This document shows, piece by piece, positions 22,070-36,038 of a stretch of DNA of 64,000 nt. Made by a program: the position numbers and the translations under genes. The notes under the pieces were generated by a model that saw only the letters and a program-made list of their open reading frames with translations, had not been told where the DNA came from and searched no databases. This stretch comes from Qipengyuania aquimaris (GTDB lineage: Bacteria > Pseudomonadota > Alphaproteobacteria > Sphingomonadales > Sphingomonadaceae), in NCBI RefSeq assembly GCF_009827445.1, contig NZ_WTYI01000001.1, positions 558,001 through 622,000 on the forward strand, given 5' to 3'. Every line of letters begins with the position of its first letter. Within the stretch, counting starts at the first letter, position 1.

Positions 22070-22092
22070 GAAATGGTCGGGGAGAGAGGATT
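22070..22092. repeat. Left attachment site (attL), 23-bp core
   Basis: Identical over 23 bases to 35958–35980. It begins GAAATGGTCGG and ends GAGAGGATT. Read on the minus strand it is the last part of a tRNA-Pro gene with its CCA end. This copy is not attached to a complete tRNA and marks the chromosome–island junction. Confidence 0.93.
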
Positions 22093-22163
22093 TTGGACAG
22101 ACTGCGTCACAAGGCTTTGAGGCGCCTATCTTTCTGATTTCACGAGGGGAATTTCCTGACCGC

Positions 22164-22183
22164 TGTATAGGAAACTGTATAAT
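22164..22183. promoter_or_regulatory. Putative integrase arm-type site, left end
   Basis: Two TGTATA words in direct orientation, TGTATA-N6-TGTATAAT. The same words with identical spacing occur near the right end (35890–35909). They start 71 bases inside the left core repeat, as expected of arm-type binding sites of a tyrosine integrase. The function is inferred from position and symmetry. Confidence 0.55.
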
Positions 22184-22286
22184 CGGTGCTCAATAATTCG
22201 GTCCTATATCGGCAGGTAAGTTGCCGAACCAAACATAAAAATAGCCTCGATTGGCGTGCTCGTTCTCGCTCTGTAGGCGTTTGCAG

Positions 22287-24023
22287 ATGAGCACTACACG
22301 AAAGCGCGCGAAGGCGTGCACGCCCGACAAATACCTTTGGCTGCGAGGCTCTATCTATTGGTTCCGATATGGAGTGCCGAAACGTTTCCAGTCTGTGGAA
22401 GCACGCAAGCTGATTCAGGTTTCGCTAAAGACCAATGATTTGCGAGAGGCTCGTCTTTTAACGGGCAAAATGCGGGCAGATTTACATTCGGAATGGGAAG
22501 GCCGGTTGAATGGCTCTGCAAGCCCAGCCGCTTACCCGCCCGATCATCTTGATATGACTTTGGAAGCTACCGAGGCGGCATATTCGCGCATTCGGCCCAA
22601 GCTGGAAAATCTCGCCAAACAGCAAGAGCTTGATAACCAGCAGGCCTATGATGCCTACCTGCGCAAACTTCGCAACACTCGCGATGATTTCCTGAGGGCT
22701 AAGGCTTGTAAGCCCTTATCCGTTTGGTCCGATTTGGCTGATCGCCGCATCAGCAAAAATAACTGGATTCTACCGCAAGGGTCGGAAGGCTACGACACAT
22801 TTGTCGACATGATCGCTGAGGCAGCAATTGAGGCCTTTAATATCGAGATTGCTAGGCGAGAGGGCCAGTTTGCTGCTGAGCCATCGAGTCTGGTCGTTAA
22901 GGCTGGCCTAAAAGCCAAAGATGACACCGCCAAGGACGGGGAGACCATTCTTGATCTCTTTGATCGCTATGCGGCTCAGCGGCTGGCAGAGGGCAGAAAA
23001 CGCGAAGATGGTATCACCCAAGACCGAAAGGTGATTGATTCATTTGCGAAGTTCGTAGGCCCTCGCAAAAGTATCAAGGGTCTCACCCCAGCGGATATTA
23101 GAGATTGGCGCGATACGCTCGCCGCACTGCCTCCAACCTATCAAAAGGCTAAAGCCTATGAAGGCCTATCAATGCGCCAAGCCGCTGCGAAGGCGAAGGC
23201 TATCGGTGCGAAAACTATCAGCCCAGTTACTGTCAATAAGCACCTATCAACACTGTCTCCATTTCTCGGCTGGTGCGTTACCAATGCCTATGCAGACAGG
23301 AACCCATGCGACGGGCTGTTCTTCGGCATTGTAAAAGGAAAGAACCCTAGGCCGCCGTTCTCAAAGGGGCAGCTTGAGAAAATCTTTGCTTCCTCTCTCT
23401 TCACTGGCTTCTTGCGTGAGGGGCAAGAGCATAAGCCTGGAATCCAGAGAGCGGATGATTGGCGATATTGGATACCGATTGTTTGTTTGTTCACCGGAGC
23501 AAGGGTTGGGGAAATCGCGCAGCTTCGGATCGAAGACATTCAGCTTGATGATGGCATACCTTTCCTGCTCATTCGACATGACGAGAGCACAGGACAGCGC
23601 ACCAAGTCAGGTGCCAGCCGCGTTTGCCCCATTCACAGTGAGCTAAAGCGGATTGGCTTTCTAAGCTTCGTGGAAAGACAGCGGAGCCGAGCCAATGGCA
23701 AAGCAACCTGTCAGCTATTTCCAGAATTAGAGCCGAATGAGAGAGGCCATATCGGCGCAAAGCCTTCTCGCTTCTGGCGTGACTATCTCAAGCGAATTGG
23801 TGTCAAATCCGGCAATGATGGCCTCGGAGCGCATTCCTTCCGCCACACAATGGCCGATGCATTGCGGACCGCTGGCTATCTGGATGATGAGATTGAAGTA
23901 GCTTTGGGCCACAATCAGAAGACCGTCACCGCTGGTTACGGGAGGGTAAGGCAAGGGACTGTCAAACGCATCAACACGATGCTGGAAGCTATAACCCACA
24001 GCTATATTTCATTCTCGAAATAG
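22287..24023 (+). CDS. int: Tyrosine site-specific integrase
   Basis: A 578-residue recombinase with an N-terminal Trp/Tyr-rich segment (KYLWLRGSIYWFRYGVPKRF), as in DUF6538-containing integrases, a helical core-binding domain, and a C-terminal catalytic domain. Visible catalytic residues are the first Arg in GARVGEIAQL, HSFRH (His-x-x-Arg), the second His in LGHNQKT and the nucleophile Tyr in TAGYGRV. The ATG at 22287 was preferred over an upstream in-frame ATG because the protein then begins STTRKRAK, directly before the conserved segment. It lies next to attL, reads inward and should catalyse integration into tRNA-Pro. Confidence 0.93.
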   Translation: MSTTRKRAKACTPDKYLWLRGSIYWFRYGVPKRFQSVEARKLIQVSLKTNDLREARLLTGKMRADLHSEWEGRLNGSASPAAYPPDHLDMTLEATEAAYSRIRPKLENLAKQQELDNQQAYDAYLRKLRNTRDDFLRAKACKPLSVWSDLADRRISKNNWILPQGSEGYDTFVDMIAEAAIEAFNIEIARREGQFAAEPSSLVVKAGLKAKDDTAKDGETILDLFDRYAAQRLAEGRKREDGITQDRKVIDSFAKFVGPRKSIKGLTPADIRDWRDTLAALPPTYQKAKAYEGLSMRQAAAKAKAIGAKTISPVTVNKHLSTLSPFLGWCVTNAYADRNPCDGLFFGIVKGKNPRPPFSKGQLEKIFASSLFTGFLREGQEHKPGIQRADDWRYWIPIVCLFTGARVGEIAQLRIEDIQLDDGIPFLLIRHDESTGQRTKSGASRVCPIHSELKRIGFLSFVERQRSRANGKATCQLFPELEPNERGHIGAKPSRFWRDYLKRIGVKSGNDGLGAHSFRHTMADALRTAGYLDDEIEVALGHNQKTVTAGYGRVRQGTVKRINTMLEAITHSYISFSK

Positions 24024-24056
24024 CCCTGCCCTATTGAGGATTCAGGATTGGCAAAA

Positions 24057-24087
24057 AGGTTAGATTAGATGGCAATCTAATCAACCT
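24057..24087. repeat. 13-bp inverted repeat downstream of the integrase
   Basis: AGGTT + GATTAGAT on the left pairs with ATCTAATC + AACCT on the right, giving 13 pairs with one bulged A and a GGCA loop. It starts 33 bases after the integrase stop. No T-run follows, so a simple terminator is doubtful. It could be a protein-binding palindrome or a cruciform. Confidence 0.75.
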
Positions 24088-24233
24088 GATAAACGCCCTA
24101 TGCCGAGGTAGAAAATAAGCCCTTATAACAAACATGAAATAAGCTATTGTCTGAAAAAATGCCATAAAAATTTTTTCAAAGTAAAAATGAATGAAATAAA
24201 TCACCGACGATTTATGGGCTCAGAGAAATCGTG

Positions 24234-24291
24234 CAAACACGAATCACGCCGGACATGAGGTCCGGCGGAATTTATTTGTATTTGCAAGGAA
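24234..24291 (+). promoter_or_regulatory. Structured leader before the small ORF
   Basis: A perfect 8-bp stem, CGCCGGAC / GTCCGGCG (24247–24267), with loop ATGAG, is nested inside a weaker outer pairing of TGCAAACAC with GTATTTGCA. The outer right arm ends next to the AAGGA ribosome-binding site of the ORF that starts at 24298. The inner hairpin is G+C-rich within very A+T-rich surroundings and is followed by AATTTATTT, so it may be a terminator or an attenuator-like leader. Confidence 0.5.
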
Positions 24292-24297
24292 TTTTTT

Positions 24298-24534
24298 ATG
24301 AGTAAACCGCATTCATTTTCAAAGGAATTAAAGACTAAGCAGTTGTTCGAGTCTAAACGGGCTCGCACTGGCGGAGCGATATTCATTGGCAAGGGGCATT
24401 TGATAAAATCGCTTTGCATGAAGACTCTAATTTCAGAGATTAATTGTAGGGCTGGATTTGTATTGATGGAATATGGATCGTTTTACCTAGTTTTATGTAA
24501 TTCAGGAACTGGGACAGTCATTTCAACTAAATAG
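24298..24534 (+). CDS. Small island protein of unknown function
   Basis: A 78-residue product (MSKPHSFSKELKTK…) with a basic N-terminal third and a hydrophobic C-terminal half containing two Cys. An AAGGA lies seven bases before the ATG. I recognise no family. It sits alone between two structured DNA regions and the polymerase-like gene. The good ribosome-binding site and normal composition support coding, but comparative evidence is lacking. Confidence 0.45.
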   Translation: MSKPHSFSKELKTKQLFESKRARTGGAIFIGKGHLIKSLCMKTLISEINCRAGFVLMEYGSFYLVLCNSGTGTVISTK

Positions 24535-24544
24535 ATCATTTGTA

Positions 24545-24606
24545 TTCTCCCTTTGTCCTCCCTTTAGGTGTCACCAATATACTTAAAGAGGAGGAAGGGG
24601 GGAGGG
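24545..24606. repeat. Pyrimidine/purine inverted repeat before the polymerase-like gene
   Basis: TCCTCCCTTTA (24556–24566) pairs with TAAAGAGGAGGA (24584–24595) with one bulge. The loop carries its own small palindrome, GGTGTCACC. A purine run GGAGGAAGGGGGGAGGGGG continues to 24608. Position and structure suggest a regulatory or replication-related site, but no function is shown. Confidence 0.5.
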
Positions 24607-24637
24607 GGCTATACTAGAAACACTTTGGGGATTGTTG

Positions 24638-25915
24638 GTGGAAATAGAGCGGGAAAATGCGTCCTATTTGAACCTGCGTTTAGAGCCTTGCTCCGATGAA
24701 GCTCAGGCGTTCGTCTGTAAGGTTTCAAGCCAGACATGGGCTTCAAGTGACAGCAAGCGCCCCAGGCCTTCTAAACTACACGAAGAAGCTACAGGGGCTT
24801 TTATAGCCGACTTGCTCACTTGTCATGCTCAAGACCCTTCAAAGTGTCTCTACCGTTCGATGATGGCATCTAGCTTCACGGGGGAGCGCATTGGTTATCG
24901 CGCTTTTAGACGGCTGGTCGAAGGCTCGGTCTCTGCCAAACTTGTATCGGTTGTGGGCGGAACTGGGGGAGGAAACGAGATTGGGTTGGCAACTCGCTTC
25001 AAGGCAACGGTATCACTGATTAGTTTAGCTGATAAATGCGGCATTGACCTCGAGAAGCTAGACACGCATTTCCGCCCTATCCCCCGCCCCTCTCGTATCG
25101 CCTATCCCTTATTGCTTAGGGGCGCTTCTAGACAGGTAGGGTGCAAGAAGGAGCAGGGTCGAAACATTCCAGTCGATTATGGAAAGCCTGAGGCCGCTGC
25201 GCTTGCAGAGCAGGTGAACGATCTGAACACCTTTTTTGCAGACATTCAGATCGAACCTGCAAGCGATCACTTGGCCTTCCATCGTATTTTCAACGAGGGC
25301 GACACTCGTGGGTTTGCTTGGAACAAAGGTGGTCGTCTCTACTCCATGGGCAACAGTTATCAGCAGCGGAAGCACGCGGTGCGCTCCTGCATGAAACTAG
25401 AAGGTGAGGCTGTTGTCGAGATCGATATTAGAGCCAGTCACCTAACCATCCTACACGCCAAACTAGGCCAGGCCTTCGACCCAAGTTCCAGAGACCCATA
25501 TTCTCACCCTGCGATTCCGCGTGAGGTGTTGAAGGGGTGGGTAGCAATGACTCTGGGGCATGACCGTTTTCATCGAGCTTGGACAAAAGATAAGAAGGCC
25601 GACTACCACAATGAGACAGGGCGTGACCTACGCAAAGATTTCCCCATCAAGGGCGTTCGAGAAGAAGCTTTGAAACTCCATCCAGTGTTGCGCGGGTGGC
25701 CCACCTGCGATGTTCGGTGGGGTGATTTACAATTCATCGAAAGCTGTGCTGTGATTGATACTGTGCACCAGCTGGCCCGAGAGCCTAGGCTTCCTGCGCT
25801 CCCGGTGCATGACTCAATAATTGTGCCAGTGTCTAAAAGGGAATTGGCGTGCTCGGTGTTAAAGGCCAACTTCAAAAAACATGTCGGAGTTGAGCCAGCT
25901 TTGTCGATCAGGTAG
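24638..25915 (+). CDS. Putative minimal family-A polymerase-like protein
   Basis: About 425 residues; GTG at 24638 is the likely start because GGGG lies at proper distance, but TTG codons at 24632 and 24635 are possible. The C-terminal half follows the order of a family-A polymerase palm: GGRLYSMGNSYQQRKHAVRS (like the pre-motif A region of Pol I), motif A-like VEIDIRASHLTILHA (Asp 263), a motif B-like REVLKGWVAMTLG (Lys 299), a helix LQFIESCAVIDTVHQLARE, and motif C-like LPVHDSIIVPV (His 391–Asp 392). There is no exonuclease domain and the N-terminal ~200 residues are unfamiliar. A replication or primer-synthesis role for the island is inferred, not shown. Confidence 0.6.
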   Translation: MEIERENASYLNLRLEPCSDEAQAFVCKVSSQTWASSDSKRPRPSKLHEEATGAFIADLLTCHAQDPSKCLYRSMMASSFTGERIGYRAFRRLVEGSVSAKLVSVVGGTGGGNEIGLATRFKATVSLISLADKCGIDLEKLDTHFRPIPRPSRIAYPLLLRGASRQVGCKKEQGRNIPVDYGKPEAAALAEQVNDLNTFFADIQIEPASDHLAFHRIFNEGDTRGFAWNKGGRLYSMGNSYQQRKHAVRSCMKLEGEAVVEIDIRASHLTILHAKLGQAFDPSSRDPYSHPAIPREVLKGWVAMTLGHDRFHRAWTKDKKADYHNETGRDLRKDFPIKGVREEALKLHPVLRGWPTCDVRWGDLQFIESCAVIDTVHQLAREPRLPALPVHDSIIVPVSKRELACSVLKANFKKHVGVEPALSIR

Positions 25916-26381
25916 GCACCTTCTACTGGATGATTATTTCTCATTGCGGAGCAGAAATTTGCGAAACGAAGACCTGATCGTCCTAGCGGTTGATATTACC
26001 TCGGCCTACGTTGCTAGCAACCAGATTGCTTCCGAAAGGGTGGGGAGCCTAGTTGCGAACATCCATGGTGCACTCGCTAACCTTGGCAAGGAACAGTTCG
26101 AGGCCGAAGCTCCGGAACCTGCCGTGTCGATAAGGGCCAGCATCAAGAAGGATCATCTTGTTTGCTTAGCATGTGGCAAGAAGATGAAGATGCTTAAGCG
26201 GCACCTTTCAACTGAGCATGGCATGACGCCCAAAGAATACCGCGAAGCCTACGGTCTTCCAGATAGCTACTCTCTTGTAGCTCCGGACTATGCAAAAACC
26301 CGAAGCGACCTCGCTAAGAAAATTGGCTTGGGCAAAAACCCAAATCAAAAGCGCGGCAGGAAGGCGGCTGGTAGCAAATAA
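25881..26381 (+). CDS. MucR/Ros-family zinc-finger regulator
   Basis: The family signature is clear: DLIVLAVDITSAYVASNQIA near the N-terminus, then the Ros-type zinc finger CLACGKKMKMLKRHLSTEHG (Cys-x2-Cys … His … His) and MTPKEYREAYGLP. The basic tail KNPNQKRGRKAAGSK is typical. MucR proteins bind A+T-rich DNA and silence or coordinate genes. The ATG at 25881 overlaps the polymerase-like gene by 35 bases. A TTG at 25959 with GGAG seven bases upstream fits the family N-terminus better and may be the true start. It may control the other island genes. Confidence 0.88.
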   Translation: MSELSQLCRSGRHLLLDDYFSLRSRNLRNEDLIVLAVDITSAYVASNQIASERVGSLVANIHGALANLGKEQFEAEAPEPAVSIRASIKKDHLVCLACGKKMKMLKRHLSTEHGMTPKEYREAYGLPDSYSLVAPDYAKTRSDLAKKIGLGKNPNQKRGRKAAGSK

Positions 26382-27078
26382 TACGACCAAGCTCAGCCGG
26401 AGGACCTGACATACCGCAGGAGGCTTGAGAATGCCCCAGGATTGCGTTTTGGGGCCATTTGGCCAGTAGGGTAGCCAAAACAAATAAAACGCACAGAGGG
26501 CCCTTAAAATCGCTTACGCGGAGAGGCGAAGTTTGCGATTATTATAGGGGCTATGGAAAATAGAAGTCTTAGAATTTATTGGTATTGATTAAACCTATCC
26601 GTTCATAAATTTTCACTCGAAATAACTTAAGCTCACAAACCTATCTTCATTTAGATAAGTTCAGAAATGTTTATGTAAGTTTAGGCCTCTGCGAGCCATT
26701 TCAACGCCCACCGGCCTTTGGCAGGAAGATAACCGCAAAATCGATGGTTGGTTGGGTTGTTTGAAGTCAGGCCGCGCTGATCCTCCAATCCTCACATAGC
26801 GAATGTCTGCTTTGGTCGGCTGGCAAGAAGCGCCGATGTCAGGTTTTGGGTGGAGAGCTAACTCCCATTTTTCTCAGATCTGCGTTCAGCAAGAAACGAG
26901 AGGCATAACTATTATGCCTTTGGACGCGCTATATAATTTGCCGCGCTCCGTTTCGTTGAATTGGGGTCAATCGAAGCATTGTCTTGCGAGCAACCAATGA
27001 GAATTGGTCAGAAGTTTGTCGGTCGTTTGGATTTAGGCTACATTGAGATCAACTGCAAAACCTCAATTGGGACCTCAG
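26382..27078. other. Long A+T-rich intergenic region
   Basis: About 700 bases without a convincing gene. Open frames at 26803–27000 and 26961–27173 have no family resemblance. Bases 26560–26690 are markedly A+T-rich and contain TATCT/AGATA and other short repeats, suitable for promoters or MucR binding. Two similar words, ATGTCTGCTTTGGTCGGC (from 26803) and ATGTCAGGTTTTGGGTGG (from 26836), look like degraded copies of one intergenic repeat. Confidence 0.5.
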
Positions 27079-29820
27079 ATGACGAGACGAGTCTACTTGA
27101 TGACAACAGCAATCTGTCTGTTTGTGCAGCCCCAAAGTGCCTTGGCTCAAGACGAAGGGGAGAAATTAACTAGAAGCCTCACAATCACAACTGCGAAATG
27201 GGGAATAGATCTTTTAGTAGCTGCGCACGATAGTATCGACGATCCGGAGTACATTCCTCCAGTGGACACTGGTTCAACTGGAGAGGTTATGAAGCGTGTC
27301 GTCGATAATTTTAACAGGCAGAAACTGTCCCTTGAGGGGCCTATTACGGTAAAGGAGGCTACAGTCGAAGCTGTTGCTGACGCTGGCTTGGCGCTAGCGA
27401 TCTATAGCACAGGCGGCTCTGCGCTCGTTCCGGCAACAATCATTAGAGCTGGAATCCAGGCTGGATCGGACAAGTATTTCGCCGCGGAGCGCGCCGAAGT
27501 GGATCAGCAGTTGAGGTCATATCTCGCAGCGAAAGAAGAGAGTATCATTGCTGAGACAGGACTAAGCTACCCCGAGTTACGAAAACTGCCCCCTGCCGCG
27601 TTACGTGCAAAGCTAGAGGAAGGAACTGCGGCGTTTGGCGCAATCGAAGAAAACGTTGCTGACCCGCTTTTACAAGAAACGTCGAAACGGCTGATTGTCA
27701 GCACGATTATAAACACTCAAAAATCGACACTCGATTTGGTCGACGAAAACACTTTCCAAATTGCCCAACTCCAATCGGGCCTGGGTGAACTGAATTCTAA
27801 GTTTGATCAATACAGGCAGATTACTGATGCTGTCCTTTCCGAGCATGATAAGCGTATAACTGGCCTTGAAGAGTCGGCGAGACTATTAGAAAGTTCGATT
27901 GCACAGCTTGATAGCCGAGTTGCTATGAATTCCGATTCTATCGGGCTTATCCAAGATTTGATGTTCTCGAAGTTATCTTCCGTTGAGAAGGTTGAAGCGT
28001 TGAAGGGCGGATTCCTTGCGCACAGGTATTATTGTCCAAGCGATGCTGAAGCGTGCGAAAAGGAGGCCGTGAAGGCTGACTTGATCTCGCATTTCGAAGC
28101 TCAAGCAGAATTTGAAGCGAATATCAAAGCAGCGGGGAATTTAATCGACGATACCAAACAAGTGATCGGGATTGCTGAAGCACTAGGTGTCGAGACCGGA
28201 AAAGCGGGAGAGATTGTCCAATTTGGATCGGTTGCTCTGTCCGCGTTCACCTCATATGCGACTGGAGATTATTTGGGTGTCGTGTCGTCGATCACGGGTG
28301 CCTTCGCGAAGAAAAAACCGGATCCTCAGTTGGCAATGCTTCGGCAGATGGATGCGAAGCTTACTCAAATATTGAGGAATCAGCAGGCTCTAAGCAATCA
28401 GATGAAAAGCATTAGTGAACGTGTCGATATTCATTTCGATAAATTGAACGAGCGATTTGATACTGTGGAGTTCGGTATAGATCGGATCGGCAGGCTAGCG
28501 GCAACGGCACTTAACGAGGATTGGCGATCGTGTCCGAAGTTATACGAGCACGCCCTTGATCCGGCAAACGCGGCTGCATTCGGGTTCAATCCTTCAACAG
28601 GTCGATTTCCCAGCTTTGACAAGGCAAGTCAATTCGCTTTCAACTTTAACTATGACGCCGAAGCCTGTGGTCAAAAGATGGACAATACCTTGGGCCAATT
28701 CTCCAGCCAGTCGTGGTTCATTAACTTTCTAACAAAGGAGATAGACGTCAAGGCGGAGAATTATGTTCTTAAAGAGCTCGCTGAGAATCAAGCGGCGAGT
28801 TGGAAGTTAAATGCAGATTACATTAGAGCATCTGGGATCTCATCAGCAGAGGCAATGTTTTCCTATTCCCGGCCCGCTCAATCGTTTGACCAACTTGAGA
28901 ATCGGATCGATGGCCTGCGAGGCCTAGGAGCTTGTGCCGAGGATCGAAAAATTGAAATGGTCGCTCTTGAGCGATTAGTATGCGTGAAATTGCCTATTGC
29001 AGAGCAAAATGTTCCAGAAGCGACCGCTAATTTACTCCGCGTTCCTATGTCAGCCTCGCACGCTCGAGACGTCATTAAGTGGGCTTTGTTAGAACATAAT
29101 CTCGCAAATTTTTCTCAATTTGCAGATCAAGACAATCCTGTATCGCTAGCAGACGTCCTAGAAGATCCGCGTATCGCGCCCATGTCTCGGTCGGAGCAAC
29201 GGCTAGAAGATGCATTGACCACTCTCGACGTCGCGATTGCCAATTTGGCGATGCCTGTCGGCGATCTAACGATTCTCAGTATTGCAAGAGCATTGACTGA
29301 TCCTCCGGCCGATACCGGTAAAGCGTCGGAGCAAACAAAAGTCGTGAGAGAATTATTGTTAAGGAGGAAAATTCTAGCAAGAAACGTCGCAACTTTTTTG
29401 GTTCGGGAGCGAATGGGTCTTTATGATGGAGAAAATCCGTCCGGTGTTGAACCCGACCGAGGAGCTTACGCAGCAGCTCTAAACTTCGCAAAGTCGACGA
29501 AAGAAGGTGATCCGCTCATATTGTTGAACACCTTACTTGGACCGAAATCAGTCCTACGGAAGAGTGAAGATGGATTGGTATTTATCGAGCTTTTGCCCGG
29601 TGGTGAAAAGGCCGACGCGGTTCTGGTTGAGCTTCCCGGGCCCGCCTTGGTATTCAGCGGGGAGATAATTTATACGAACGACATTTATGAATTGAGCAAG
29701 CTACGCTCTTTGGTCGTTGACCGATTGATGAACTTCAAAGCGCTAAAAGGCCTTTCCATGGACGATCGGGAGCACTTTTCAATAAATGCGATCCGCGCTT
29801 CGCAAGGATCTGAGCAATGA
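27079..29820 (+). CDS. Large secreted coiled-coil protein of unknown function
   Basis: About 913 residues from the ATG at 27079, which gives a clean signal peptide (MTRRVYLMTTAICL… ending ALAQ). Two long coiled-coil stretches are visible, about residues 230–300 and 430–485 (LRQMDAKLTQILRNQQALSNQ, then DKLNERFDTVEFGIDRIGR). Two Gly/Ala-rich hydrophobic segments precede them (DAGLALAIYSTGGSALVPAT and GSVALSAFTSYATGDYLGVVSSITGAF). The C-terminal half is helical with scattered Cys. No catalytic motif or known domain is recognised. Helical coiled coils around hydrophobic hairpins recall α-pore-forming toxins in general plan only. It overlaps the next gene by 4 bases. Confidence 0.75.
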   Translation: MTRRVYLMTTAICLFVQPQSALAQDEGEKLTRSLTITTAKWGIDLLVAAHDSIDDPEYIPPVDTGSTGEVMKRVVDNFNRQKLSLEGPITVKEATVEAVADAGLALAIYSTGGSALVPATIIRAGIQAGSDKYFAAERAEVDQQLRSYLAAKEESIIAETGLSYPELRKLPPAALRAKLEEGTAAFGAIEENVADPLLQETSKRLIVSTIINTQKSTLDLVDENTFQIAQLQSGLGELNSKFDQYRQITDAVLSEHDKRITGLEESARLLESSIAQLDSRVAMNSDSIGLIQDLMFSKLSSVEKVEALKGGFLAHRYYCPSDAEACEKEAVKADLISHFEAQAEFEANIKAAGNLIDDTKQVIGIAEALGVETGKAGEIVQFGSVALSAFTSYATGDYLGVVSSITGAFAKKKPDPQLAMLRQMDAKLTQILRNQQALSNQMKSISERVDIHFDKLNERFDTVEFGIDRIGRLAATALNEDWRSCPKLYEHALDPANAAAFGFNPSTGRFPSFDKASQFAFNFNYDAEACGQKMDNTLGQFSSQSWFINFLTKEIDVKAENYVLKELAENQAASWKLNADYIRASGISSAEAMFSYSRPAQSFDQLENRIDGLRGLGACAEDRKIEMVALERLVCVKLPIAEQNVPEATANLLRVPMSASHARDVIKWALLEHNLANFSQFADQDNPVSLADVLEDPRIAPMSRSEQRLEDALTTLDVAIANLAMPVGDLTILSIARALTDPPADTGKASEQTKVVRELLLRRKILARNVATFLVRERMGLYDGENPSGVEPDRGAYAAALNFAKSTKEGDPLILLNTLLGPKSVLRKSEDGLVFIELLPGGEKADAVLVELPGPALVFSGEIIYTNDIYELSKLRSLVVDRLMNFKALKGLSMDDREHFSINAIRASQGSEQ

Positions 29821-30323
29821 AGCGCGCGATGCTGATCACTATACTCGCATTTGGTGGGTTAGTTTTCTCAGATCCTGCTCAAGGTCAAGCTCAGATTGAG
29901 AGATGCAGCGAAGCTGCAAACGTAAAGTATGTTGAATTATATGCTGCTATAAATACTGAGGCTCATAAGAACGCATATTATTCTGTGGAAGCGGAAAAGT
30001 ATGAGGCCAAGGTTCGGGAGATAGTTCGCTTCATTTTCAATAAATCCACCAAGGACCAAGGTAAGCTCATGGCCGTCCCACCTGCGCCACCCATCATGCA
30101 ACTGGATCCAGTGTCTCTTGGGGTTGCAGGGCAGAATGAATGCACCAACATCAAAGGCGGCACTTTTGTTGGGCCATGGACGGGTCGAGCTGAATATAAA
30201 AGGTTGGTCAAAAAGAAAGAAGAGTGGGAAGAGCTAAGGAAAGATCGAAGCGCAATTCTCGATCGTTTTTCCAGAGCGAGGGCAAACCTAAAGCTCATCA
30301 AGGATTTTCTCGCCAATTTTTAA
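29817..30323 (+). CDS. Small secreted partner protein
   Basis: A 168-residue protein whose ATG overlaps the stop of the large secreted protein (ATGA), so translation is coupled. It has a signal peptide (MKRAMLITILAFGGLVF… ending near AQGQA). The mature part is helical and highly charged, with two Cys (QIERCSEA and QNECTNI) and a Lys/Glu-rich C-terminal helix (YKRLVKKKEEWEELRKD). No family is recognised. Shared export and tight coupling suggest that it binds the large protein, as a chaperone, an immunity factor or a subunit. Confidence 0.7.
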   Translation: MKRAMLITILAFGGLVFSDPAQGQAQIERCSEAANVKYVELYAAINTEAHKNAYYSVEAEKYEAKVREIVRFIFNKSTKDQGKLMAVPPAPPIMQLDPVSLGVAGQNECTNIKGGTFVGPWTGRAEYKRLVKKKEEWEELRKDRSAILDRFSRARANLKLIKDFLANF

Positions 30324-30467
30324 TCGAGAGCTGGTCGCAAGGCCTTGAGAATTGTTTTCAAATGGTTCTAAAAATTGGCTCAGCAATCGAAAGAGCCGCA
30401 GAAGGTAACCTGTTGGCGCCAAATTGAAGATTGGTGCTTGCAAAGTAAAGGAGCTCGAAACTTGTAA

Positions 30468-30564
30468 GCTTTGAGCCACCCTCAAAGCCATTACCGGAAA
30501 TGGCTCAAAACCTACTAGACTCTTTTATGAGCCTAGCGCATAAACTTACTCATATCTTTTGAGC
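30468..30564. repeat. Nested TTTGAG/CTCAAA repeats upstream of the serine recombinase
   Basis: GCTTTGAG (30468–30475) pairs with CTCAAAGC (30481–30488). TTTGAGCC (30470–30477) can instead pair with GGCTCAAA (30502–30509). A further TTTTGAGC lies at 30557–30564, 16 bases before the gene. Such clustered inverted sites are typical of resolvase res sites or recombinase operators. The assignment is inferred from position. Confidence 0.5.
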
Positions 30565-30579
30565 GAGTCGGAGTGCCAT

Positions 30580-31161
30580 ATGAGCCGCATTGCATATTTC
30601 AGGGTTTCTACCGAAGGTCAGAGCATTGAAAGCCAGCGAAAAGCTTTGGGTGGCAGCTTCGACAAGGAGTTTGCCGATGAAGGTGTGTCAGGTGCCACTA
30701 GGGCAGTTGATAGGCCAGGATTTGCAGACCTGCTCTCGTATGTGCGTGAAGGCGATACAGTTTGCGTAACTGCGATAGACCGTTTGGGTCGCGATGCTTT
30801 GGACGTTCAAAGCATAGTTCGTGATCTAATCGGCAAAGGTGTCATCATAGATGTTCAAGGCCTTGGGCCGATAGCCAAAGGCGTTGGTGAACTTGTGGTG
30901 GCTGTGCTTGCTCAGATTGCCGATATGGAACGTCAACGTATCAAAGAGCGCTGCGATGCAGGTAGAGCGGCAGCTAGGGCTTCATTGGCTAAGAGCGGTA
31001 AGACCCATAGAGGCAAGGTTAGCCTAGGCCGTCCAATGGCTGCTGATGCTTCCGCCGTGGCGCAGTGGAGAAAGGCTAATAAAGCTAGCATTTCACAGAC
31101 GGCGAATGAGTTTGGTTTATCTGCCGCGACAGTGAAACGCTATTGCATGTCGCAGCGGTGA
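30580..31161 (+). CDS. Serine recombinase (resolvase/invertase family)
   Basis: A 193-residue enzyme from the ATG at 30580, preceded by GGAG. It has the nucleophile Ser 10 in YFRVST, the catalytic-core segments GVSGATRAVDRPGF and DRLGRDALD, the long E-helix region AQIADMERQRIKERCDAGR, and a C-terminal helix-turn-helix (SISQTANEFGLSAATVKRY). The size fits small resolvases and invertases rather than large phage integrases. It may resolve multimers of the excised island or invert a segment. The repeats at 30468–30564 are the obvious candidate site. Confidence 0.93.
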   Translation: MSRIAYFRVSTEGQSIESQRKALGGSFDKEFADEGVSGATRAVDRPGFADLLSYVREGDTVCVTAIDRLGRDALDVQSIVRDLIGKGVIIDVQGLGPIAKGVGELVVAVLAQIADMERQRIKERCDAGRAAARASLAKSGKTHRGKVSLGRPMAADASAVAQWRKANKASISQTANEFGLSAATVKRYCMSQR

Positions 31162-31305
31162 TCGACGCTATGCCTCATTCTAATTCAACGATGCGGAGTC
31201 GGTCTCTGGCTTTATGAGCACCCGTCTGCGGGTGAGCGGGAGCGAAAATGCTGTGCGAAGAGCGGCGGTTGGAGTTGCGGCAAGTTCGTGAAGTGGTTCA
31301 AGAAC

Positions 31306-31345
31306 TTGAATCACGAGAAGCTGCGCGTCCACTTTAGGTGGTCCA
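31306..31345 (+). repeat. Imperfect direct repeat, copy upstream of the Type IIG gene
   Basis: Shares the pattern TTGAAT-ACGAG … GCG … GTCCAC … TTAG … GG-TCCA with 35253–35290. The two copies flank the restriction gene, and each lies about 90 bases before the start of a defence-type gene. It may be a shared promoter or operator, or the scar of a cassette insertion. Confidence 0.45.
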
Positions 31346-31432
31346 TTCACATTTACTGATAAGGCCGTCGCAGACCTTGAACCGATTTAAATTTTGGCTT
31401 GGCTGTTTCAGTCAAAAAGGAAATGCGTGGCA

Positions 31433-34400
31433 ATGCCCAAGAAACCTTCGGAATCTGCTTTTGATGAAGCAATTCGCACTATTCGAGAAACCAAGAAGGG
31501 CCAGGAGGCGGCCATGTATGGCCCGCTCCGCGATATATTTTGTGACGTTCTTGGCTATCCCCGCAGTTCCGTTCACATTGATATTGCTGGAGAGGCCGGA
31601 AGGCCGGACGTAACTTGTCGAGCCCCGTCAGGGATCATGGATCGTAACGGAAAGTCACTCGATATCGATTGGATGGTTGTCGAAGCCAAGGACGAACACG
31701 ACGCCTTTTCGACAATTAGTAGGCGGGAGGCGATCTTCGCTCAAAAGGCGAAATACGTTCGCCCCGATACGGCTTGGTTCATCATGGCTGATCCTACCAT
31801 AATTGTTGCTCGTCCCGTGATGAATTCGACGCATGATAGCGCGAGTGATATCATTTTTACTTTGGACTCAGCGACGGACGAGGCTCAGTTCCGGAGCACC
31901 TTTGCTCGACTGTCATATGGTGTTGCCGGTGTTCCACAGCGCTTAAGGGCATTTCGCGAAGGCGATACCAGCCTCATTGCCACTGAGAAGCTGACATTGT
32001 CAGAGAACGCCACAAAGCGTCAGGAAAATCAGGTCGCCGTTGCTCGGCGTAACTTCTACGAAACCTTGCGCACAACGACCAGTCACTTGCAGGAATCTAC
32101 CCTTGGAACCCTGCATTCAGTTCTTAACATGGCAACCGATGTTTCAACCGCCTGGAAGACATTCGCTGACAAATACCCCGATGCATCTTTCGATCCATAC
32201 ACCTTAACTGCGACAGCAAAGCCCAACAATTACGAACTGGCAATTACATATGGCGGTGACGTTGCCCGCCTTAATCGAAAGCTTAAAAAGGCGGGAAGCA
32301 TCGCGCGATTGGCGCTCGATGGATTGCCAGAATTCAAGGCGAGGCTGAACGGCAAAGAGAACGACGCGAAAGAGGAAAAGAAGATATTAGAGATGTTCGC
32401 GACTGAAACCGCGAACCTCATTCTTGCACGTATTTTGCTTATCCGCTTCTTTGAGGATCACGGCTTTTTCGGTGCCAATCGCTTCCTCTGCAATGGCGGT
32501 GTTGAAGCTTTCCAGATGCTTCGAGAAAAGTTCGCATTCGGATACACTCGGTTGCTCAAAATGGCCTACGAAAAGGCCCAAGCGCTTTATGCGGCTGCAT
32601 TTGACGAAACCGAACTGGATTGGGTTTTCGCGACGAATGATGCGAACCTGTCTAACGCTATCGAATGGGCGATGTATCAGCTATCGCGCTACGATTTCAC
32701 TACGGTGAAAGGCGACATTCTCACTGGCGTTTATGACCGGTTTCTCGACCGCGAACAGCGTAAGAAATTTGGGGAATATTACACTCCACCTTCGATCGCC
32801 CGTTACATCGTAGATCGTCTAGAGTTGAAGCCGGAAGATCGATTTATGGACCCGGCTTGCGGGAGCGGAACGTTCCTTATCGAACGCTACCAACAAGTGG
32901 TCGGGGAAGATGCCGATCAAGGACTTGCAACCTATTCAGAAGTAGTCGCGGCGTTGGCCCGATTGGCAGGCAATGACCTAAACACGTTTTCTGCCGTTTT
33001 GGCGCAAATCCAAATTCTCTGGCACGTTCTTAGTTTCAAAGATGATTTGATCGCAGCAGAAGAGTTTCCCGATATCGCAATCAGCGACAAGGCGAACAGC
33101 ATCATTCGGCCAGGGGTTGAATTCTCTCAGCACGGTCGCTTTGTCGAACTCGACCGCCCATCCTATGGCGGGATCGGGGGCAATCCACCCTATGTCCGAC
33201 CAGAACGCTCTGGCGAAATCGACGAGGCTACCAAGCAGTATTTCGAGAGCGATCGCGAAGAATGGAAAGGTATTTCCGCCGAGGCTAACCTCTATGCTCT
33301 GTTCATCTACCGGGCGCTCGATGGTTGGTGCCGCCTCCCTAACAAGTGGGGCGAAGGTGCCGGGCGGCTTGGGTTTGTTGTGCCGCTCGCCCTGTGCGGG
33401 ACCAAGGAAAATGCAGAGCTACGGCAGCTGTTCGCTGCCGATGGCCGCTGGACGATCAGGGAAATTGTCGATTTGGAAGTCATCTGGCGTAACGTGTTTG
33501 ACGCCGACGTTTTGCCGATCGTCCTGATTGCGGAGGCGCGACCGCCCAGATTGCCGCTTGATCCCAAGTGGCTGGACAGATCGGAGCCTCTGCCGGATCG
33601 GAAAGCTCTGCGATACCAAGTCCGCGCCGCACGGCTACAACCTTGGATTGATGCTCGCCTTGCGAAAGCTGCGCCAGAAACAGCAGATGTCTGGCGGAGC
33701 CTTTCGAAACGAAATCAGAAACGGTGGGAGCATGATCAAGTCACTATCAAACTGGCCGACAAGAGGTGCATTGATTTTGGCGATGGCACGAAGCGCCCCA
33801 CCTTCAACCTAGCAGGGATCCCAGCTTCGCGCCTCGACTATGCAGACCTTTTCACCCCCGATGGTCGGATTGTAACTCGGGTAACCCCGGAGCGACGAAC
33901 GATCATCAATAAGCTTCGCGCAAATCCGCAAATGTCATCGGCTTTCCAGGAATATTGGTATAAGAGGAAAGGGGCGAAGAAATCGGCTTCGGACTCAAAC
34001 AGTCTTCACCTACCGTTGGTAAGTCAGCAGGCCGATGGATTGCCACGCGGGTCAGTCACATTGGTAAAGCCCGCGGGCGATCTCACAATGTGGGAGCATC
34101 GCGAGATGATCTCTCGCGGTATCGTCTTTGCGGGCCGCAAGAAGGATGCCCCCAAGGGAAGGGGACACACAATCTACAAAGCCGAGAACATTGTTTCGGG
34201 CGGGATTCATGGCGACCCACAAGATCAAGGCATCGACATTTCAGCGGCTCGCAACCGTTACCTATTCGAATATATGGACATTTTGCCTGAACGCCTTTGG
34301 GCGGTTGCTCGAATTGAACGCTCTCCCAACGCAGTGCCTTTCGATCCCCGCAAAGTGGCGTTCACAGATACCGCGACAATATTCGCGCCTCGGGCTGAAT

Positions 34401-35209
34401 TGGTTGACGTTCCGTTCGATATGATTTTTGTTTCCAGAATATACCGCTATTATTACGCTCTTGCGGCCAAGATGTCATACTTAAATACTTATCGTGGCGA
34501 CATATATCCAACAAATCTGCGTTTATTGCCTTGGAACGATGCCATTGCGGATAAGGCCGTTGAGCTGGAGGGATTGCGAGGCGATCTAGTTAGTGCGTGC
34601 GAAAACCATTTCCGGACAGAGGCAGCGATGTTTGCGGCGCTAGGCCAGTTGCCGATCAAGCCCTTCCGCGAAGTTGTTAAGGAAGCGGTGAAAACGACCG
34701 GCAGTAAGGTCGAATGGTCCGAAAGCCTCAACAAGGGAACGGAGGCAATCGAAATCGCGCCCGATAGCAAGGCGGTCGCCGATGGGGATGCGTGGCACAT
34801 CCAGATCTCGGAATATTTACTCGATTGGGTGAAGGTTCCGGATGAATGCGCAGCGCTTGGCCTCGCTATGGCACTCTCGGCCCGCGCGGGAACTTCAAAG
34901 AAGATGGTAGATCGTGCGATTCTGCTCGATATGCCGATCCCATCCAACGCCGATTCACGCGACAAGTTCGATGCCGTAGTGAAGCAATTTCGAGAGTCCG
35001 ATCACGCCAGCGCAATCGATGCGGTGGTGGACAAGATCGATGCTCTTATCGGCCCCGCACTTGGGTTGGCAGAGGATGACATAGCGTCGATCCGAGCGGA
35101 CATGACAGACGACCCGTTCTTGCGGAATATTACTCCACGTTGGCCTGCGACGGAAACCCGAATTCATGGCTATCGAACGGGGCTGGACAGCTCAGACCGC
35201 TATAGTTGA
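31433..35209 (+). CDS. Single-chain Type IIG-like restriction-modification enzyme
   Basis: About 1258 residues. The N-terminal region has a PD-(D/E)xK-like nuclease pattern (GRPDVTCR … DWMVVEAKDE). The centre is an N6-adenine methyltransferase: FGEYYTPPSIARYIVDRL, motif I DPACGSGTFL and motif IV GNPPYVRP. The C-terminal ~600 residues should hold target recognition. No helicase Walker A is visible, so this is not Type I, III or ISP. One chain would both methylate and cut, as in Eco57I-like enzymes. The start at 31433 begins MPKKPSESAF; an in-frame start 13 codons upstream is possible. Target sequence unknown. Confidence 0.88.
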   Translation: MPKKPSESAFDEAIRTIRETKKGQEAAMYGPLRDIFCDVLGYPRSSVHIDIAGEAGRPDVTCRAPSGIMDRNGKSLDIDWMVVEAKDEHDAFSTISRREAIFAQKAKYVRPDTAWFIMADPTIIVARPVMNSTHDSASDIIFTLDSATDEAQFRSTFARLSYGVAGVPQRLRAFREGDTSLIATEKLTLSENATKRQENQVAVARRNFYETLRTTTSHLQESTLGTLHSVLNMATDVSTAWKTFADKYPDASFDPYTLTATAKPNNYELAITYGGDVARLNRKLKKAGSIARLALDGLPEFKARLNGKENDAKEEKKILEMFATETANLILARILLIRFFEDHGFFGANRFLCNGGVEAFQMLREKFAFGYTRLLKMAYEKAQALYAAAFDETELDWVFATNDANLSNAIEWAMYQLSRYDFTTVKGDILTGVYDRFLDREQRKKFGEYYTPPSIARYIVDRLELKPEDRFMDPACGSGTFLIERYQQVVGEDADQGLATYSEVVAALARLAGNDLNTFSAVLAQIQILWHVLSFKDDLIAAEEFPDIAISDKANSIIRPGVEFSQHGRFVELDRPSYGGIGGNPPYVRPERSGEIDEATKQYFESDREEWKGISAEANLYALFIYRALDGWCRLPNKWGEGAGRLGFVVPLALCGTKENAELRQLFAADGRWTIREIVDLEVIWRNVFDADVLPIVLIAEARPPRLPLDPKWLDRSEPLPDRKALRYQVRAARLQPWIDARLAKAAPETADVWRSLSKRNQKRWEHDQVTIKLADKRCIDFGDGTKRPTFNLAGIPASRLDYADLFTPDGRIVTRVTPERRTIINKLRANPQMSSAFQEYWYKRKGAKKSASDSNSLHLPLVSQQADGLPRGSVTLVKPAGDLTMWEHREMISRGIVFAGRKKDAPKGRGHTIYKAENIVSGGIHGDPQDQGIDISAARNRYLFEYMDILPERLWAVARIERSPNAVPFDPRKVAFTDTATIFAPRAELVDVPFDMIFVSRIYRYYYALAAKMSYLNTYRGDIYPTNLRLLPWNDAIADKAVELEGLRGDLVSACENHFRTEAAMFAALGQLPIKPFREVVKEAVKTTGSKVEWSESLNKGTEAIEIAPDSKAVADGDAWHIQISEYLLDWVKVPDECAALGLAMALSARAGTSKKMVDRAILLDMPIPSNADSRDKFDAVVKQFRESDHASAIDAVVDKIDALIGPALGLAEDDIASIRADMTDDPFLRNITPRWPATETRIHGYRTGLDSSDRYS

Positions 35210-35252
35210 TGTAGCAATGTTAAAGCTTAGAAAACTTAGAGCCTGGAAGTCT

Positions 35253-35290
35253 TTGAATTACGAGCATGCGGTCCACCCTTAGCGGCTCCA
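35253..35290 (+). repeat. Imperfect direct repeat, copy upstream of the DpnI-like gene
   Basis: Second copy of the element at 31306–31345, sharing TTGAAT-ACGAG, GTCCAC and TTAG blocks in the same order. It lies 44 bases after the Type IIG stop and about 90 bases before the DpnI-like start. Confidence 0.45.
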
Positions 35291-35379
35291 CGCGACACAA
35301 AAGTCCTTGCACTTATTGGTATTAGGTTGAGCGGGCAGCATCACCACTCCATAACTTAGTGTGCAGCGAAGGGGATTTG

Positions 35380-35829
35380 ATGCCGACGGACAAACAGAAA
35401 CTAGGCGATTTTGGCGAAAATTTGGTCGCTAAGTCCTGCTCTTGCCCGAAATGCAAGCGGAGCAAGACGCTGAAAAAGCTTCCACCAAATTTTAAGTGCG
35501 CTGATCTGATTTGCGATTTCTGTGGCTATCTGGCGCAAGTGAAAACTGCGAATGTCGGAGATGTCGAAAAGCTACCATTGAAGATCTTAGGGGCGGCTTG
35601 GGGCCCTCAGAAGGAGCGAATGGATGCTGCTATCTACTTTCCACTCTTTCTGGTTCTCTCCGAGAAAGAAGGTAGTGCTGCGGCCATTTACTACTTGCCC
35701 TCCGATCTGCAATCACCAGAGCTCTTCAAGCCTCGGAAACCATTAAGTGAGAATGCGCGACGAGCCGGTTGGCAAGGCTTCATCTACGATATTTCGGCAA
35801 TCCAAAGCCATTTCGTTCGGCTTGTCTAA
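35380..35829 (+). CDS. DpnI-like nuclease domain protein with QxK active site
   Basis: A 149-residue protein that matches the catalytic domain of DpnI / Dam-replacing proteins. A four-Cys zinc site (Cys 22, 25, 45, 48) surrounds the active site. Asp 42 aligns with the DpnI catalytic Asp, and the E-x-K element appears as Gln 53-Val-Lys 55 with exactly DpnI-like spacing. Near the end, RKPLSENARRAGWQGF closely follows the DpnI RKPLxxxARRAGWxG block. The winged-helix domain that DpnI uses to read methyl-adenine is absent. ATG at 35380 follows AAGGGG. It may be a methyl-dependent endonuclease or a partner of the adjacent restriction enzyme; activity is uncertain because Glu is replaced by Gln. Confidence 0.82.
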   Translation: MPTDKQKLGDFGENLVAKSCSCPKCKRSKTLKKLPPNFKCADLICDFCGYLAQVKTANVGDVEKLPLKILGAAWGPQKERMDAAIYFPLFLVLSEKEGSAAAIYYLPSDLQSPELFKPRKPLSENARRAGWQGFIYDISAIQSHFVRLV

Positions 35830-35889
35830 TCGCAGAAAGATGCACACGAGAGGTGGCCGATAGTGTCCACCGCCGCCTCTTTCGTGCTA

Positions 35890-35909
35890 TGTATATTTTA
35901 ATGTATAAT
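35890..35909. promoter_or_regulatory. Putative integrase arm-type site, right end
   Basis: TGTATA-N6-TGTATAAT, with the same words, spacing and orientation as 22164–22183. It lies 48 bases inside the right core repeat. The six spacer bases differ between the ends, so the words rather than the whole segment are kept. Confidence 0.55.
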
Positions 35910-35957
35910 TCCGACGCGGCATTTCTCAGTAACAAACTGAAAAATGACGCTTTTATG

Positions 35958-35980
35958 GAAATGGTCGGGGAGAGAGGATT
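35958..35980. repeat. Right attachment site (attR), 23-bp core
   Basis: Identical to 22070–22092. Nineteen of its bases are the 3' end of tRNA-Pro including CCA, and four lie just beyond it. The island therefore carries a replacement tRNA 3' end, so the tRNA gene stays functional after integration. Confidence 0.93.
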
Positions 35981-36038
35981 CGAACCTCCGGCCCCTGCCT
36001 CCCGAAGACAGTGCTCTACCAGGCTGAGCTACTCCCCG
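35962..36038 (-). tRNA. tRNA-Pro (anticodon CGG)
   Basis: A 77-base cloverleaf with acceptor stem CGGGGAG/CTCCCCG, anticodon stem CTGTC/GGCAG around loop TTCGGGA (anticodon CGG), T-arm with GGTTCGAATCC, and CCA encoded. The gene is complete although the island is integrated at its 3' end. Confidence 0.96.

Follow-up and report, generated by a model that had tools for sequence, protein, structure and literature searches.

The closest described relatives of the protein considered here come from phages and from mobile elements. The first, divPolA2, is a PolA that phages carry in addition to their regular polymerase; as described in PMC11348598, it has a palm and no exonuclease, lacks a homologous thumb and begins with a region that contains no known domain and is unrelated to the N-terminus of single-subunit RNA polymerases (RNAPs). 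Roles as a repair polymerase or an RNA polymerase were suggested there. That study surveyed phage genomes, and the word 'integrase' is absent from its main text. The second, the TV-Pols, belong to mobile elements with a resolvase, a lambda-type integrase or a transposase near restriction–modification (R–M) genes; their described features are a beta-hairpin Arg, an RRM-like palm with two catalytic Asp residues, a fingers region with an Asp and an RxxxK motif and a two-helix thumb, alphaproteobacterial members are listed, and some members begin with an additional domain that is called all-helical (PMC2579912). CcPol, of the PolA-SSB primases of SCC elements, has been placed among the TV-Pols; together with MP, a small partner protein that grips ssDNA, it synthesizes DNA primers de novo (PMC7581432, PMC10061031). 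It keeps residues E710 and F762 of Pol I and uses dNTPs, and a winged-helix ssDNA-binding protein is described from other SCCmec elements (PMC7581432). Literature searches by title and abstract returned nothing on the clade of island-borne polymerases described below, and for divPolA2 or PHROG 4756 they led to PMC11348598 and its preprint only.

Our protein is encoded in Qipengyuania aquimaris, within a stretch of 64,000 nucleotides that we call the window (contig NZ_WTYI01000001.1, positions 558,001 to 622,000; Table 1). Its reading frame, on the + strand, ends at 25915 and starts either at a TTG (24632, giving 427 aa) or at a GTG (24638, giving 425 aa); the start codons in the open frame 5′ of 24638 are TTG, TTG and GTG, with no others. 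Comparison with an 81%-identical homologue indicates purifying selection (dN/dS about 0.14–0.20; dN 0.099 and dS 0.70 by NG86, 0.106 and 0.54 by YN00), and a chance reading frame is thereby ruled out. So is a fragment or pseudogene of Pol I, since the frame has no stops, the motifs are intact and the family is a separate one; the Pol I gene of the host sits elsewhere in the genome.

Direct sequence routes to a polymerase assignment failed or were weak. The protein has no match in Pfam or NCBIfam at E-values up to 1 and no credible match in PADLOC (one at chance level, E = 0.031). Sequence searches of the PDB for known polymerases failed or gave weak results; with profile A2 no polymerase was among the matches, and a FadR-type winged helix–turn–helix chain was matched weakly (E = 0.27). 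Aligning the family profile with 16 Pol I sequences in hhalign gave a weak probability of 3, with D263 paired with the Asp of DYSQIE and the hairpin and motif A in register. Our identification of the protein as a polymerase is therefore based on fold and on conservation within the family.

That family is PHROG 4756, annotated 'unknown function', which residues 192–419 match at E = 1.1e-18. Our alignment of it (A3) holds the window protein and 43 relatives, nine of the 44 being viral, and every member matches PHROG 4756. They were taken from 73 extracted ORFs; most of the 30 that did not enter A3 were short or broken, ran into a contig end or nearly duplicated another sequence, and the rest were a 1045-aa fusion and a few full-length viral ORFs (for example L050 and L066) that were simply not picked. 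No Pfam family covers the 44 members, five families matching one member each, the best of them PF08220 (HTH; E = 0.0048). Profile A1, built from 14 sequences (the window protein, 12 genome proteins and one plasmid protein, with no phage), matches the divPolA2 representative AUR84708 at E = 7.6e-12 (Z = 1000, filters off), and profile A3 matches MG592441 at 25490–26647, inside AUR84708, at E = 3.0e-32; the window protein alone reaches AUR84708 at only E = 0.014. These profile matches place the window protein in the sequence family of published divPolA2. The two are alike in having a family-A palm without an exonuclease, an unusual N-terminal domain and structural matches to DNA polymerases and mitochondrial RNAP. 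They differ in that the island clade is nearly all alphaproteobacterial and lies beside an integrase and a serine recombinase.

A sequence-only reading of this DNA had recognized the motifs of a family-A palm in the second half of the protein, and the alignment bears this out. Eight residues are invariant in all 44 members (G232, R233, R249, D263, Y288, K299, H391 and D392), and E261, R295 and D286 are nearly so (43, 42 and 41 of 44). The two catalytic Asp residues, D263 (codon 25424–25426) and D392 (25811–25813), on whose presence in homologues that reading had hinged, are thus kept throughout the aligned relatives. Together with the hairpin Arg R233 and with D286, R295 and K299 they reproduce the residue set described for TV-Pols. 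The reading had also proposed a His in place of the Pol I gate Glu, and position 268 of the window protein (codon 25439–25441) is indeed His, as it is in 29 of the 44 (22 of 35 bacterial and 7 of 9 viral members). No member has Glu there; the phage protein AUR84708 does, when read ungapped from the motif-A Asp. Four residues beyond K299, at the position that aligns with Phe762 of Pol I, 26 of 44 members have N, T or A and none has F, and at eight residues beyond K299 (Tyr766 of Pol I) 40 have G, N or S and none has Y. Because the gate residue varies across the family, the choice of sugar is not readable from sequence. Use of ribonucleotides by the window polymerase is possible, and the His at its gate, which is bulky too, does not imply such use.

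Structure prediction and fold searches likewise yielded a family-A palm, as anticipated. With A3 as input, AlphaFold2 modelled the full protein at pLDDT 93.5 and pTM 0.89. The motif-A Asp is placed at the end of strand 257–264, the motif-C Asp in the turn that joins strands 388–390 and 393–397, and R233 in strand 231–236, with helix 184–200 lying N-terminal to the hairpin. Against the PDB, Foldseek ranks Pol I structures highest, those of Taq type and that of M. smegmatis (best E = 5.6e-5), and all 50 matches listed are of Pol I type. VIA-align, for which no absence was counted as evidence, gave a tie among yeast mitochondrial RNAP (Z = 14.9; 3.4 Å over 250 residues), T7 RNAP (Z = 14.4; 3.2 Å over 247 residues) and the apicoplast polymerase (Z = 14.2; 3.9 Å over 239 residues). 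In the comparison with viral models, Aeromonas phage 4L372D ranked first, and a Rheinheimera Barba31A protein named DNA polymerase ranked eighth. The core fold is thus shared with Pol I, from which the protein differs in giving no match to PF00476 at E-values up to 1, in lacking the exonuclease domains and in being about half the size.

The two RNAPs at the top of the VIA-align rows raise the alternative of a very small single-subunit RNA polymerase, which would transcribe the genes of the element or make RNA primers and whose N-terminal domain would read a promoter. We consider this quite unlikely. The absence of the Pol I gate Glu from all 44 aligned members speaks for such an enzyme, but the gate is mostly a bulky His and is Glu in AUR84708; the apicoplast polymerase ties with the RNAPs, and the Foldseek matches listed are all of Pol I type. 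Annotation points both ways, one A3 member weakly matching PHROG 414 'RNA polymerase' (E = 0.0081) and one PHROG 5995 'DNA polymerase' (E = 0.025). Transcription was also raised for divPolA2, the N-terminus of which is nevertheless described as unrelated to that of RNAPs (PMC11348598), and residues 1–150 of the window protein resemble a winged helix instead. The close T7-type RNAP loci that we retrieved numbered three, at 84–91% identity.

The absence of an exonuclease domain, noted in the sequence-only reading, fits this N-terminal prediction. Folded alone, residues 1–150 reach pLDDT 91.8 and resemble mainly winged-helix chains of the MarR/LmrR type, with VIA-align Z scores of 7.0 or less and a best Foldseek E-value of 0.026 (none at 0.001 or below). 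Two weak sequence matches of helix–turn–helix type, PF08220 in one of the 44 members and the FadR-type chain, point the same way. We regard a winged helix as likely, with moderate confidence, the reserve being that the VIA-align Z lies in the range that the tool calls common. A winged-helix profile matches the N-termini of L071 (E = 5.9e-17), L018 (2.1e-15), L064 (1.4e-5) and the Aeromonas phage PAc protein (0.004), and at E-values up to 10 it has no match in AUR84708, ICP1 gp100, the KASIA protein, L057 or L070. The prediction, again of moderate confidence, is accordingly confined to the island members and some relatives and does not cover AUR84708, ICP1 gp100 or KASIA. For the island members it supplies a domain prediction for the N-terminus that is new here. 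Such a domain could bind a promoter rather than an origin or template.

Within the order, 21 of 346 genomes contain a match, and PHROG 4756 is matched in 23 of 349 genomes of the phylum, all but one of the same class (the genome of the window is included in both counts); none of 14 control genomes has a PHROG 4756 match. A single peptide pattern, run over named genome contigs, yielded at least 45 loci, nearly all from Alphaproteobacteria, the best relative being that of Qipengyuania huizhouensis (81%). The window protein itself directly matches two phages and one plasmid, of Sphingomonas parapaucimobilis, and a scan of viral contigs with the single window protein gave no match. A search that starts from the protein of Aeromonas phage PAc reaches 290 phage records at E-values up to 1e-3, 115 of them Rheinheimera, and also ORF100 (gp100) of Vibrio phage ICP1. 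That protein, annotated as hypothetical (L186 7114–8781, equivalent to NC_015157 53113–54780), belongs to the polymerase family, matching profile A1 at E = 1.6e-15 (Z = 1000, filters off). An acyl-carrier-protein-like gene lies near the polymerase both in ICP1 (L186 6295–6615) and in Vibrio phage 1.063.O (L187 3887–4201). In a midpoint-rooted tree, read by its topology, the island clade separates from the phage members used, with the exceptions of viral L071, which lies beside bacterial L112 and L113, and of bacterial L014–L016, L018 and L020, which lie on the phage side.

The sequence-only reading had assigned the gene to an integrative element, which is confirmed by the 23-bp att repeats, by an empty site and by a sister island. 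The empty site is found in the same-genus genome G138 (L122), where the left flank runs into an intact tRNA-Pro gene. Two further genomes of the genus, G205 and G220 (L120 and L121), carry other DNA behind this att core, which makes the tRNA-Pro site look like a hotspot of integration. The sister island, L073 of Q. huizhouensis, adjoins the same tRNA-Pro and shares the integrase (73% identity), the polymerase (81%) and the serine recombinase (88%); an exact search with the 18-bp core found no left att copy there. At E = 1e-3, BLAST gave no match in L073 for the MucR-family, 925-aa, 168-aa, R–M and DpnI-like proteins. Since the polymerase is kept with the integrase and the recombinase while these other genes differ, we reject it as a cargo gene and count it as backbone, a view resting on one close sister island. 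The 925-aa protein, with weak coiled-coil matches and, by eye, a signal-like N-terminus, and its overlapping 168-aa partner (27043–30323) have no clear families and look like island cargo.

Table 1. Coordinates (in the window) of the tRNA-Pro island and of the features of its polymerase gene
Feature	Position	Strand	Basis or remark
Integrated island, 13,888 bp	22070..35957		att repeats and empty site
Left copy of 23-bp att repeat	22070..22092		
Tyrosine integrase, backbone gene	22251..24023	+	PF00589, DUF6538; 73% identical in L073
Minimal family-A polymerase-like protein, 425 aa	24638..25915	+	PHROG 4756 / divPolA2 family
N-terminal domain (residues 1–150), predicted winged helix	24638..25087	+	Fold search, moderate
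Polymerase core (residues 185–425): hairpin R233, D263, R295/K299, H391-D392	25190..25912	+	Model and alignment
Motif A D263 to gate position H268	25424..25441	+	Sequence, alignment
Motif C Asp D392	25811..25813	+	Sequence, alignment
ROS/MucR-family regulator, overlaps end of polymerase gene	25881..26381	+	Pfam; no homologue found in L073
Short intergenic block, possible cis element	26430..26513		77% over 86 columns with L073
Serine recombinase, resolvase family, backbone	30559..31161	+	PF00239; 88% identical in L073
Type IIG-like restriction–modification protein, cargo	31394..35209	+	No homologue found in L073
DpnI-like methyl-directed restriction protein, cargo	35359..35829	+	No homologue found in L073
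Right copy of att repeat, overlaps 3′ end of tRNA-Pro(CGG)	35958..35980		
tRNA-Pro(CGG), integration target	35962..36038	−	

The linkage to recombinases extends well beyond these two islands. Within 8 kb of the polymerase, 39 of 62 loci have a serine recombinase and 38 a tyrosine integrase; 26 have both and 51 have either. The 62 derive from 67 loci examined, of which 65 had the polymerase by BLAST and three were dropped as duplicates; broken polymerase ORFs and nearby contig ends are included, and the ORFs come from a simple greedy script and not from a gene finder. In a controlled comparison, with self-locus queries removed, serine recombinases and tyrosine integrases occur at 16 and 15 of 20 polymerase loci (including L044, where the polymerase is matched by a fragment that contains a stop), as opposed to none of 20 random 20-kb stretches for either; these stretches were drawn from 17 genomes (16 with polymerase loci and that of the window). 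Homologues of type I R and M proteins are found at 6 and 5 of the 20 polymerase loci and at one random stretch each. This excess, like the R–M genes of the window island, could be taken to mean that the protein is cargo whose polymerase fold is put to use in defence or anti-defence, as in polymerase-based phage defence systems. That is very unlikely in our view, because the polymerase is kept in L073, which lacks the restriction genes of the window island, and because PADLOC offered nothing better than the chance-level match mentioned above.

Motifs and neighbourhood fit the TV-Pol polymerases. Besides the shared residues, the island has both kinds of recombinase and the wider set of loci shows the recombinase linkage, and locus L038, in which a polymerase and a resolvase accompany a Bro-N gene (PF02498, E = 3.8e-18), repeats the three-gene element described for TV-Pols (PMC2579912). 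There are also differences: the extra N-terminal domain is called all-helical in that work, whereas a winged helix is predicted here, and many TV-Pols, like CcPol, adjoin a helicase, of which there is none among the eight island ORFs scanned. A direct sequence comparison was also made with phage Ma-LMM01. Its protein MAP_030, which we take to be the TV-Pol of that phage, was the best ORF of 50 kb against the core profile (E = 3.5e-4), with a weak hhalign probability of 29; the whole Ma-LMM01 record gave no match with A3.

We tentatively read the window protein as an exonuclease-less family-A polymerase of the divPolA2/TV-Pol type that serves its element as a primase-polymerase, an assignment to which we give a little less than an even chance. 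The fold, the invariant catalytic set, the predicted winged helix, the element context and the association with recombinases, including the in-frame L088 fusion described below, support it. The enzyme is probably active, judging from its model and conserved residues; we infer polymerization, DNA binding by the winged helix, and priming or copying of the excised island alike. In outline, excision by the integrase would turn the island into a circle; the winged helix would then grip the template or an origin sequence, and the palm would start and/or extend DNA on the element with help from the host helicase and replisome. Copying of the circle would thus be kept up until re-integration or exit from the cell, and the serine recombinase would resolve multimers or assist movement. 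By analogy, this would be an action like that of CcPol–MP with the template-binding part within the same chain; the winged-helix ssDNA-binding protein of other SCCmec elements (PMC7581432) makes it reasonable that a winged helix could hold the template. Both polymerases are family-A palms on mobile islands and linked to recombinases, and CcPol, as described, has only part of an exonuclease domain. They differ at the gate, where E710 and F762 of CcPol correspond to H268 and A303 here, and in the partners recognized: neither an OB-fold partner nor a D5-like helicase turned up in the island, and the next gene is the ROS/MucR-family regulator.

Several results count against a primase-polymerase. 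Pfam searches with the eight island ORFs found no replicative, D5-like or DUF927 helicase, no OB-fold partner was identified in the island, and the gap between integrase and polymerase genes contains short repeats only, with no convincing iterons or origin. The winged-helix profile misses the N-termini of the five relatives named above, and the domain might serve a promoter. The hhalign comparison with Pol I was weak, and our literature searches found no biochemistry of divPolA2 or of members of the island branch. In phage KASIA, moreover, the polymerase relative stands beside that phage's own Pol I, primase, helicase and RNAP, so a replicative role is not required of it there. An additional enzyme of this sort, and an element with no helicase family in its scanned ORFs, would suit a primer-dependent repair, gap-filling or translesion DNA polymerase that fills gaps after integration, excision or damage; the link to recombinases would suit it too, and repair has been suggested for divPolA2 (PMC11348598). 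Retention of the gene with integrase and recombinase in L073 is, however, what would be expected of a replication or maintenance gene, and this alternative appears unlikely to us. We know of no gap-filling polymerase with a winged helix.

The primase-polymerase reading can be widened to a proposal that we regard as rather doubtful, namely that the island clade and phage divPolA2 form one class of single-chain, primer-independent polymerases. Each would have its own DNA-binding domain, for the island clade a winged helix, that recognizes the element origin or grips ssDNA, so that the palm could begin synthesis with no SSB partner or element helicase, and the choice of sugar may be relaxed, given that both the gate Glu and the Phe of Pol I are gone. 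The sequence-only reading had held a dedicated mini-polymerase or primase on an integrative element to be notable; the palm and the island stand, and the kind has already been described (TV-Pol in 2008, divPolA2 in 2024). What the present locus adds is a join between two sets described separately, the TV-Pols of islands and transposons and the divPolA2 of phages, together with a concrete island that has a backbone, att sites and an empty site, and with varied gate residues among the members. Whether the activity is that of a primase, a repair polymerase or an RNA polymerase is testable on one protein of 425 residues.

The genes around the polymerase vary. Directly upstream on the same strand, the 62 loci have an integrase in seven cases, a recombinase in six, another gene in 30 and none found in 19, so a fixed operon is not general. 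A common small upstream partner gene was considered and rejected, as only one of 10 small upstream ORFs matches Pfam (L022, HTH_17). Ten further ORFs were compared with Pfam (the 78-aa ORF upstream of the window polymerase, eight polymerase neighbours and the Bro-N gene of L038): five, the 78-aa ORF among them, had no match, and single matches were obtained to Bro-N, SNase, HNH_3, DUF5677 and OMP_b-brl. Ten large neighbour genes in other loci include type I R proteins, a ResIII/DEAD protein, AIPR and a caspase-like protein, and no replicative helicase, D5-type or other. The caspase-domain protein (PF00656, E = 1.6e-7) adjoins the polymerase in Roseomonas harenae (L100 11536–13023).

Some arrangements with the recombinase genes are closer. 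The polymerase gene shares a 4-bp overlap with a recombinase gene in L025 and with an integrase gene in L043. In Bradyrhizobium japonicum in8p8 a single ORF of 1045 aa (L088 8069–11209) carries an N-terminal integrase and a C-terminal polymerase in frame. This fusion could be the result of a lost stop; in three Bradyrhizobium relatives, gaps of 83, 85 and 327 bp separate integrase and polymerase genes. In the window island and in L073, a 22-bp imperfect palindrome precedes the start of the serine-recombinase gene (window 30523–30544; L073 12298–12319). The flanks are collinear, but the 9 bp at its centre have opposite orientations in the two islands, and the window copy matches that of L073 exactly in reverse orientation only; from the sequence, recombination seems to have inverted a small site here.
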